Shown here: in pieces, positions 14,601 through 16,857 of the stretch
Layout of the letters: every line of letters begins with the position of its first letter
How positions within the stretch are numbered: the stretch's first letter is position 1
NCBI GenBank assembly: GCA_015064805.1
Contig: SVRN01000007.1
Span: 1 to 64,000, forward strand
Source of the DNA: Oscillospiraceae bacterium
GTDB lineage: Bacteria > Bacillota > Clostridia > Oscillospirales > CAG-272
Reading direction: 5' to 3'
DNA: 64,000 nt
Made by a program: the position numbers and the translations under genes
Notes under the pieces: generated by a model
Database searches by the model: none
The model's input: the letters and a program-made list of their open reading frames with translations, nothing else
What the model was told of the DNA's origin: nothing

Positions 14601-16857
14601 CAAGACCATGTTGCTTGCCGCGACAATGCTCAACGAAATGCTGCGCTCCATGTTTCCGTCCGTTGCTGATTCGATTGCCGTCTGTCCTGTTCTTCAGGGT
14701 GAGATGGCCGGCGAGGACGTACAGCTGATTCTTCAGAAGCAGCCGAAGATCAAGATCATAGGCGAGAGCGAGCTTGTCTCAACGACGGACTTCAATCTCG
14801 TTATCGTGGAGGATTCCGCAACGGATCTTGGTGTCGTAGCCGTTCTGATGTCCGCCGGCGATGACGTGCTTCGCACGTTGTTCAGTCCGCTGTTCAACTA
14901 TCTGGAATGGTACTCGAACACCGGTGAAAAGAGCGATTATCTCCATTTCGGTATGGATCACGAGCCCGAATGTTTTGATTTCGATGCGTTGCATCGGCTT
15001 TCTAAGCTGCTGGGTGACGATAAACACGACTTGAGGTTCGTTGATATTGAATCCGTCATTGAGTACGCGTCGTGCGACTTCTGTGGAAAGCGCTATGCCA
15101 AGGGACACGACATGGTCGAGCTGGATGACGGCAGAAGAATGTGCAAGTCTTGTGCCGAGAATCTTGTGGGCAACAACAAGAAGATCCTGAAGTCTCATCT
15201 GGATCGTGCGAGAATGTTCCTGGAGAGCACGTACGGCGTAACGCTCGACAGCGACTATGAATTCTGCTTTGAGTCTACGCTCAAGATTGCAAACACCCTG
15301 AAGCAGAATCGGATGCTGAAAAAGAGAGGCACCGACATTCCGCTGAAATCCTACGTTGACGATAAGAAGAAGGTCCATGTTGAGTACTCGCTTCCTTCCG
15401 TTAACCTTTCCGAACTGCTTGTTCGGGAGCTGACGCACGTATGGCAACTTAAGCATCTGCCGGATATTCCCGAGGATCTTGCAGAAGGCCATATCGCGCT
15501 CGTCGCGGTGCAATACCTGCGCTTCTTGAATCAGCATTCGCTCTCGGCAAGCAGAGCCACGTATTACGAAAGCACGGACAACCTCTCGGGAGAAGGATAT
15601 CGAAGACTTGTCAGAGAACTGCTTGAAAATCCGCAGTTCCGCAACAATCCGTTCCGCTATCTGATGGAGACGTCCGGTGCAAGCTTTGAGGATGAGGTCA
15701 CGCCTCCGTCGCCCAGAAGCTTTGAATTCACCGAATATTCAGGTCGACCTTACACGCCTGAGAAGCCTGACCGCGCCCTTGACGGCAGTATGAAGTACTT
15801 CTATTACGAACGGCTGACCACGACGGGGCAGAAGGCGTACGATACGATGCTGGCGGCGATTCAAAATCACGAGACTACGGTCACGTTGGACGGCTGCACC
15901 TTTGAAGACGCCAAAAAGATCTCCGAAGCGATTGAGTACGATCACCCCGAGCTGTTCTGGTATAAGACGTTCTCTATGCGCGGCGAGGAGGTATCGCTGC
16001 GTTACGGTGCATCGGCAGAAGCGGCCGCAGTGCTGCAGAAGCGCATCGAAGAGGTGGCTCCCAAGTATCTTGAAGGTATCGATGATTCCATGAGCGCCTA
16101 TGACGTTGCCATTCGTCTGCACGTTAAGATCATATCGTCGGTAGACTACGATACGATCGCCCTTGAAAAGCAGAAGAAGGCAGGCGGCCCTGAGGACGAC
16201 AAGATCGATTATCTGAGAACGATATGCGGTGTCTTCCTTGACGGCAAGGCTGTTTGCGAGGGCTATGCCCGCGCGATGCAATATCTCCTGCAACGGTGCG
16301 GCATTGAAAGTGCCGAGGTGGCGGGATATATCCGCAAGGAAAACGGCGAGCGTGACGGTGGCCATGCATGGAACATCCTGAAGATTGACGGAGATTATTA
16401 CTACCTGGACACCACCTGGGACGATAGCTCCAGCACGGTCCAAACGGTAAAGTCGGAAGATCTTGGATTCGATTACTTCTGTATTACGACGGACGAGTTG
16501 ATGCGAACCAGAGACCTCGATCTCTGCCCGACGGATCTCCCCGGCTGTTATGCAACGCGAGCGAATTACTATTATCATAACGATGCTGTTCTTGAAACTT
16601 ATGATATAAATAAGATCAAAGCAATCGCTCAGGAGGCTGCCAAGGAAAAGCGCAAGTCGTTCACCTTTAAGTGCAGAAGCCGCGCACTCTTGGAAGAGAG
16701 CTTGTCCCGTCTTTGCACCGTAGGTGAGGATTGCTACGAAGCTGTGAATGCTGCGGCCAAGATTGACAAGCAGATTTTGCCGAATCAGTGCTCCTATGCT
16801 CGTGACCCGAATATCTGGACGATAACGATAAATTTCAAGTATAAGGCAGACGCTTAA
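11644..16857 (+). CDS. Multidomain membrane protein: N-terminal TMs, degenerate helicase-like region, LIM-like zinc finger, DA1-like peptidase, transglutaminase-like domain (1737 aa)
   Basis: RBS aaaggagg; TM segments; CDFCGKRY...RRMCKSC; RELTHVWQ...EDLAEGH; TGase triad AVCEGYA / GGHAWNI / LDTTWDD. Confidence 0.85.
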   Translation: MDFVENLIKVVIILAMILLMALPFLMEFFTFYLDKSKKISYKRFRIVIYTAVYVVAITIALYFLKGFFSWLESLSFVQWIVTTVGLSHRTVFLGKVLAAVLVNFAVGALYVFCSKFARIGLKKKSLLIPEGEAGQFSRKQKRERKVIKFFHTETWFFVGSIVKWLSIALSCVYALVFIVYMIPAMFPADWIPYDIVAMLFEAGYIYPTISLLALWELYFFLEGIRCIDKECPELLDEGTVGMAKVQEDLKVIDAEVRKQFGDYYICDVDVSGAVQEELSSTDHSPLTEYIAQAVERDKRNPQLRKESYLTCLDKLVESEKGVLINGNFFSEFSMYFLRYISAVIARGDNVVFVCNTDAQIDSVYDYLTQGFSEISSLYCKGFQNDSVDFDDPIWRVVKVRGEQSAIEEAAVDENNVLVTSLTYLCSTRFETEHSKFISLIDAVVFVDSLATVNTHNRQLAIVNTRLKHIIKKNSIAVKNGKSKDLFRVRYVSRDIRYICFDDTRSPGLDKVLKNMLSVNFETVDAMNYSPTTMVRCYAYEGKPDENGRRHCPQFFNSEEEVGAVMNMAVLCLAKGASNVTVFADNIIPYENIAETIAANRGRVSIQADGSNIRLNKQFYNPNDYSVIIAVDSGDNLPATLRRYISMVSDKPALIIVFSRPYMLRDYYVSNINNLWSAGQMERIPVEEKTGKDVAQRILVKANAGGISRQEILRLATGVPQFDEYATKGDLNAVLREVLRLYGESLKDNMTLFKYFEYVSLQDFDEKGKFNPELRVILRRQGKFFESLNGRDMAVMVVGDREYILSIPRSRLTQNYIAGQNLIYNGNVYYIQKLDFKSGRVYARLAVGGKNEETYQYIQSREYHLAVGADQIEYASTKHIVLKLADEDVSISDVYVSAFKAPMEVVTRGYFAVDSHTLALNSGADSYYSISDPGNDALAKQTYRRYGMIAQPFYSSDSRPSVDLNVKESGALMMSIRICGQFGSDINKTMLLAATMLNEMLRSMFPSVADSIAVCPVLQGEMAGEDVQLILQKQPKIKIIGESELVSTTDFNLVIVEDSATDLGVVAVLMSAGDDVLRTLFSPLFNYLEWYSNTGEKSDYLHFGMDHEPECFDFDALHRLSKLLGDDKHDLRFVDIESVIEYASCDFCGKRYAKGHDMVELDDGRRMCKSCAENLVGNNKKILKSHLDRARMFLESTYGVTLDSDYEFCFESTLKIANTLKQNRMLKKRGTDIPLKSYVDDKKKVHVEYSLPSVNLSELLVRELTHVWQLKHLPDIPEDLAEGHIALVAVQYLRFLNQHSLSASRATYYESTDNLSGEGYRRLVRELLENPQFRNNPFRYLMETSGASFEDEVTPPSPRSFEFTEYSGRPYTPEKPDRALDGSMKYFYYERLTTTGQKAYDTMLAAIQNHETTVTLDGCTFEDAKKISEAIEYDHPELFWYKTFSMRGEEVSLRYGASAEAAAVLQKRIEEVAPKYLEGIDDSMSAYDVAIRLHVKIISSVDYDTIALEKQKKAGGPEDDKIDYLRTICGVFLDGKAVCEGYARAMQYLLQRCGIESAEVAGYIRKENGERDGGHAWNILKIDGDYYYLDTTWDDSSSTVQTVKSEDLGFDYFCITTDELMRTRDLDLCPTDLPGCYATRANYYYHNDAVLETYDINKIKAIAQEAAKEKRKSFTFKCRSRALLEESLSRLCTVGEDCYEAVNAAAKIDKQILPNQCSYARDPNIWTITINFKYKADA

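Follow-up and report, generated by a model that had tools for sequence, protein, structure and literature searches.

Protein Z, the 1737-residue product of the last gene of a tubulin-like (FtsZl1)/vWA operon, displays RELTH where most of its relatives carry the zinc peptidase motif HELTH, and ends in a fused transglutaminase-like (TGL) module. We consider it probable that the former zincin domain has become a structural or docking pseudo-peptidase, and that the TGL is now the only recognizable catalytic module of the protein. The gene lies in a 64,000-nucleotide stretch of DNA from an Oscillospiraceae bacterium of the gut, the whole of which is called the window below. The loss of the active site, its clade-wide spread, the fusion of a TGL with an intact triad and the conservation of the operon can be demonstrated at the level of sequence.

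Domain Organization of Protein Z

The features of the gene are the following, in window coordinates.

11644..16857, + strand: protein Z, 1737 aa, with membrane anchor, helicase-like core, Cys4 knuckle, pseudo-zincin and TGL module (open reading frame and homologues)
11644..12309, + strand: about five predicted transmembrane (TM) segments, residues 1-222, with positive loops 26-45 and 115-163 (hydropathy and AF2 helices)
12331..14913, + strand: helicase-like core, residues 230-1090, putative MrfA/DUF1998-like fold (Foldseek of a low-confidence model)
15058..15690, + strand: Cys4 knuckle with the pseudo-zincin domain, residues 1139-1349 (HMM; alignment to homologues in which HELTH is intact; AF2 pLDDT mostly >85)
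15073..15153, + strand: CX2C-X19-CX2C zinc knuckle, residues 1144-1170 (CDFCGKRYAKGHDMVELDDGRRMCKSC), about 90 residues before RELTH; its four Cys are present in all homologues that cover them, also the degenerate ones
15424..15438, + strand: RELTH in place of HELTH, residues 1261-1265 (Arg1261, Glu1262, His1265)
15442..15447, + strand: Trp-Gln that follows the motif (residues 1267-1268), present in nearly all homologues, intact or degenerate
15484..15486, + strand: Glu1281, at the place of the third zinc ligand, 15 residues past His1265; within the RELTH group this position is Glu, Ser or Lys
15838..16845, + strand: TGL module, residues 1399-1734 (Pfam PF01841; AF2 pLDDT mostly >90; Foldseek)
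16255..16257, + strand: Cys1538 of the TGL triad (C-H-D in 40/40 fused modules)
16363..16365, + strand: His1574 of the same triad
16408..16410, + strand: Asp1589 of the same triad

The first-pass annotation had given the motif, its frame and coordinates and the CGG codon of Arg1261 correctly within ORF 11644-16857, and the Glu and the second His that it described as remaining are indeed present. A local sequencing error was rejected, because the change from a His codon (CAT or CAC) to CGG needs two base changes and the Arg is common to five diverged relatives with RELTH. Nor is the motif a chance resemblance, since some 215 residues of the domain can be aligned to those of 111 further distinct domains, and HExxH is intact in 92 of these. 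Loss of the first His of HExxH, a zinc ligand, normally abolishes catalysis, and the Glu of the motif is the catalytic base, not a ligand. The zincin (clan MA) signature of HExxH plus a third ligand is found in the 92 homologues, and the window protein departs from it with RELTH.

The AF2 model of residues 1096-1737, built with 50 sequences, reached a mean pLDDT of 82. It places RELTH inside a zincin-like helix (157-176 in model numbering) and the downstream Glu in helix 182-199, the strand, the motif helix and the Glu helix of the zincin part all being at high pLDDT; a structure prediction without such a helix at RELTH had been named earlier as a refutation. The PDB fold matches listed for residues 1096-1737 correspond to the TGL part, the best being Streptococcus pyogenes TglA (9crn, E 1.1e-15, TM 0.72 on target), while peptidase models of a viral library (IrrE, SprT-like and others) matched the zincin part weakly. 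With matches as weak as these, the zincin fold is assigned, as a prediction, from homology to the HELTH proteins and from Pfam metallopeptidase families. Searches of solved-structure sequences returned nothing useful for the zincin domain (VgrG2b at E 0.25 only) or for the core.

Concerning the N-terminal part of Z, four TM segments exceeded the hydropathy threshold in the window protein and a fifth lies at the matching place in relatives. From these approximately five segments and the positive loops, the C-terminus of Z is predicted to be cytoplasmic. The model of the core had a pLDDT of 62, and its four best PDB matches by Foldseek were all MrfA (E 1.3e-17 to 5.3e-13; best 6znp). Unlike the MrfA/DUF1998 helicases, the core of Z is preceded by a TM anchor and has no recognizable Walker A; the pattern GxxxxGK[ST] was absent from its expected place both on inspection and in a four-way alignment. 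A profile comparison of the core with five MZB-bearing loci was not significant (one short match, P 0.036), and the window genome contained no Pfam match to MZB. It is likely, but unproven, that the core is helicase-like and ATPase-less. A membrane-anchored pseudo-helicase, if the core is one, would be unusual.

Relation to DA1 and to Other Zincin-Like Families

The module had first been described as LIM-DA1-like. Arabidopsis DA1 is made of a LIM, a LIM-like and a HEMMHX15EE peptidase region, and its peptidase mutant carries AEMMA in place of HEMMH (PMC5322733). Both proteins have a zinc-binding Cys module before the zincin motif, and the window lineage, including the intact L056, shares with DA1 the 15-residue spacing from the second His to the Glu, the sole DA1-specific trait that was found. 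However, the window protein lacks the first His, and its single four-Cys knuckle (two CxxC pairs, four zinc ligands and not eight) does not deserve the LIM label, whereas DA1 has a LIM plus a LIM-like module with four CxxC/H pairs. The family motif is HELTHxWQ rather than HEMMHAWL, and the operon partners are other. The Pfam DA1-like profile PF12315 did not list the window protein at E up to 1 and reached only 4 of 24 family members (best E 0.014); it had no match in 300 genomes of the phylum, nor in the controls. Membership of the DA1 family is not supported.

The best profile matches of family members were to DUF6782, BSP, DUF6055 and IrrE/SprT-type putative metallopeptidases; DUF6782, a zincin-like Pfam family, was matched by 18 of the 24 (best E 7.8e-8). 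The differences are that these matches fall mostly below curated cut-offs where shown, and that the active site is lost here. To our knowledge, neither a knuckle nor a tubulin-operon context is known for these zincin-like Pfam families.

Survey of the Zincin Motif in Homologues

Homologues were collected by profile searches of the order, genus, class and family, plus one scan of named genomes, and 112 distinct domains were kept after removal of identical ones and of two partial or unrelated hits. A query with the domain only (259 aa) retrieved the same gene in a congener, 54% identical and with RQLTY, and proteins of two other genera (same family and order) with an intact AHELTHIWQ...YEGMAKW. 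Members also occurred in Actinobacteria (Leucobacter, Humibacter, Naasia, Pseudolysinimonas), Treponema and Tissierella. HExxH was intact in 92/112 domains and degenerate in 20/112, so that the loss of the first His, for which homologue alignment had been advised as a check, is clade-wide and not confined to the window. RELTH itself was found in six proteins (window, L049, L050, L183, L184 and L185); the other degenerate motifs were RQLTY, RIIAE (2), RMITE (2), RGLIE/RGLIS/RGLIG/RGLLS/RGMIE/RAYMA, QGLLA and HGIIA, with Arg at the first-His position in 18 of the 20. The four knuckle cysteines were kept wherever the region was present in the 112-domain set, and the third-ligand Glu was not always kept among the degenerate domains. 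The spacing from the last motif position to this Glu was 15 in the window lineage, the intact L056 and L060 included, and 19-32 in other intact members. No intact zincin paralogue was found in the window's own genome.

The fused TGL divides the set. The 72 domains without it were all intact (HELTH in 71, HELIH in one) and none degenerate, the 40 with it comprised 20 intact and 20 degenerate, and every degenerate domain (20/20) carried it; these counts are not independent, as one or two loss events underlie all 20, and contingency tables are no evolutionary test of them. Profile searches do not favor HELTH; their hits, taken by themselves, were 20 degenerate and 7 intact with the TGL, 0 degenerate and 19 intact without it.

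The TGL Module and the Order of Events

The TGL module is the key to interpreting the altered zincin motif. The region first annotated ended before it, and both the module and the tubulin/vWA operon had been overlooked. Its match to PF01841 scored 32.6 bits against a cut-off of 23, and the Cys-His-Asp triad was present in 40/40 fused modules, including all 20 that accompany a dead zincin. The module also matches the model of the MAG6410 family TGL-related lipoprotein (NF045980, E 4.9e-17), far below the equivalog cut-off. It resembles TglA in fold and this lipoprotein in sequence, and differs from both in being fused to a membrane protein of a tubulin operon.

In the trees, the degenerate proteins lie on one side of a single branch, their support as one clade being weak (55/14, 50/18), and a well-supported branch (100/100) sets apart the TGL-bearing lineage that includes the window. 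Within this lineage, L056 and L061 (one genus; gene split over contigs in G172) combine a TGL with intact HELTH. The core tree shows proteins with an intact zincin and a TGL on the side of the window as well as in the other clade, where the TGL was gained or lost several times and HELTH always kept. Because forms with a TGL and intact HELTH exist within the window's lineage, the simplest reading is that the TGL was fused before the zincin was lost. The branching order of the intact TGL-bearing lineage relative to the degenerate groups is weakly supported, and would be compatible with one or two losses.

Separate TGL genes were also seen. In L080, L101 and L081 such a gene lies no more than about 10 bases from where the zincin gene ends; in L055 and L114 a TGL frame overlaps or adjoins the zincin gene (stop-to-stop frames). 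The separate TGL proteins near a zincin gene are encoded at 5929-7062 (-) in L055, 10649-12028 in L101 and 10254-11924 in L114, and further ones at 10659-11921 in L080, 11892-13217 in L081 and 17647-19005 in L093. Where the N-terminus is present, a signal peptide, a lipobox or a single anchor was recognized by inspection, and these proteins look exported or lipoprotein-like. The location signals are then in conflict, the fused TGL being predicted inside while the separate ones are apparently exported. The separate genes may have been a stepping stone to fusion, although their products bear signal peptides or anchors and cluster separately, on long branches.

Operon and Genomic Context

Z is the last gene of a four-gene operon, with intergenic gaps of 30, 63 and 16 bp, whose other elements are the following.

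2969..2997, + strand: perfect TTGACA-17-TATAAT promoter-like site with TG extension, likely the operon promoter (consensus match only)
3123..5777, + strand: membrane protein with a vWA domain, a signal-like N-terminus and the metal loop DDSGS (PF00092, 24.7 bits against 23.8)
5808..9314, + strand: Tubulin_2/FtsZl1-type GTPase (PF13809, E 2e-48)
9378..11627, + strand: 749-aa operon partner with two hydrophobic (putative TM) segments, start codon uncertain; in the wider lineage of the window, homologues are placed between the tubulin gene and Z

A membrane-remodelling role has been predicted for FtsZl1 (Tubulin_2)/vWA operons (Makarova and Koonin 2010, PMC2875224), in a text that makes no mention of a protease, transglutaminase, zinc or helicase component. 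The window has the same arrangement of a Tubulin_2 GTPase, a vWA protein and TM proteins in one operon, with the vWA gene ending 30 bp upstream of the tubulin gene. Almost all loci of sufficient length have a Tubulin_2 gene some 2-5 kb upstream of the zincin gene. The actinobacterial zincin is encoded on its own (about 280 aa), behind a core gene that is likewise separate; a standalone knuckle plus intact zincin of about 280-310 aa, after the tubulin-like gene, was seen in L112, L113, L115, L116, L117, L119 and L133, and that of L113 has no signal peptide.

The system is patchy in the window's family: domain hits were obtained in 25/295 genomes, some of them weak and to short unrelated zinc-finger proteins, and core hits in 19 genomes, all 19 of which also had a domain hit. 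Directly downstream of Z, at 17148-18938 (+), lies the gene of a 596-aa membrane protein that matches TrkA_N and RyR weakly, preceded by a perfect promoter-like site of its own at 17082-17110. In the congener, a 426-aa protein (L007, 534-1811, -) adjoins the Z gene and gave a sub-threshold match to the Card1 endonuclease (E 5.9e-4). PADLOC was negative for Z, for the tubulin and the 749-aa protein and for the gene that follows, and Z was rejected as a known anti-phage defence protein.

Discussion

It seems reasonable to interpret these results as follows. The ancestor of Z would have been a membrane-anchored helicase-like protein with the Cys4 knuckle and an active HELTH...E zinc peptidase, and in one broad lineage a TGL with its Cys-His-Asp triad would have been fused to the C-terminus. 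The first zinc-binding His of the zincin would then have been replaced by Arg, and in further relatives other catalytic residues would have been lost too. The intact relatives would be active proteases. The zincin of the window would be catalytically dead and retained, together with its zinc-binding knuckle, as a structural or a substrate- or partner-docking module, and it may bind the same partner as the intact forms. The enzymatic output would come from the TGL, probably a cysteine protease or an amidase rather than a cross-linker.

The first-pass annotation had offered two readings of the altered motif. That of a pseudo-peptidase is supported by the origin from an HExxH zincin, the zincin-like helix of the AF2 model and the clade-wide loss. 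That of a variant metal site is not supported as a property of the lineage, the third-ligand Glu being Ser or Lys in 3/6 RELTH proteins and the Glu and His of the motif being lost in sister lineages.

Rather than being retained for docking, the zincin could have lost its function after the arrival of the TGL and be now an eroding linker without a role of its own. The stepwise loss from RELTH to RQLTY, RMITE/RIIAE and RGLIx, together with the variable third ligand, is what such relaxed decay would produce. We find it unlikely, however, as diverged sequences strictly retain RELTH, the knuckle cysteines and WQ (the five letters of RELTH are invariant in six proteins of 52% mean pairwise identity, with 26% of columns invariant), the fold of the domain is confidently predicted by AF2, and the domain is found in every core-bearing genome of the family.

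It could also be argued that the HELTH of the intact relatives binds metal for a structural or regulatory purpose, neither form being a protease and nothing catalytic having been lost. No member has been characterized and the Pfam metallopeptidase matches are mostly below cut-off, but the 92 intact domains, from Clostridia, Actinobacteria and Treponema alike, all retain HExxH and the downstream EG, as is expected of a catalytic site, which makes this reading quite improbable.

It is still harder to believe that Glu1262, His1265 and Glu1281, assisted perhaps by water or a distant ligand, bind a metal with altered activity, for although all three are kept in the window, L183 and L050, the third is replaced by Ser in L049 and by Lys in L184 and L185, the Glu and His are both gone in L007 and sister lineages, Arg holds the first ligand position almost throughout the degenerate domains, and a single His plus one Glu is unlike any zincin site known to us. 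In the window protein, the three residues that are kept may bind metal weakly. The invariance of RELTH beside a variable third ligand fits a structural constraint on the motif helix, and not a conserved alternative metal site.

Returning to the pseudo-peptidase interpretation, a bolder form of it, which we hold only tentatively, is that of a catalytic hand-over within one polypeptide: the TGL would have replaced the zinc protease as the output enzyme of a tubulin/vWA membrane machine, and the dead protease would remain on the membrane-bound, ATPase-less helicase scaffold for docking. Each of the three elements, pseudo-peptidase, TGL and FtsZl1 operon, is known; we are not aware of a description of the three together, with the loss restricted to proteins that have a fused TGL, and the literature covered, which was incomplete, held nothing on this combination beyond the FtsZl1 prediction.

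FtsZl1/vWA operons are widespread, and no biochemical activity was found for them in the literature. A conserved peptidase or TGL component would give them a testable enzymatic output, and the natural series formed by intact zincin, zincin plus TGL, and dead zincin plus TGL is a probe of what is cut. In the window's lineage, the family would offer a clear example from nature of a pseudo-peptidase retained next to a possible replacement enzyme.
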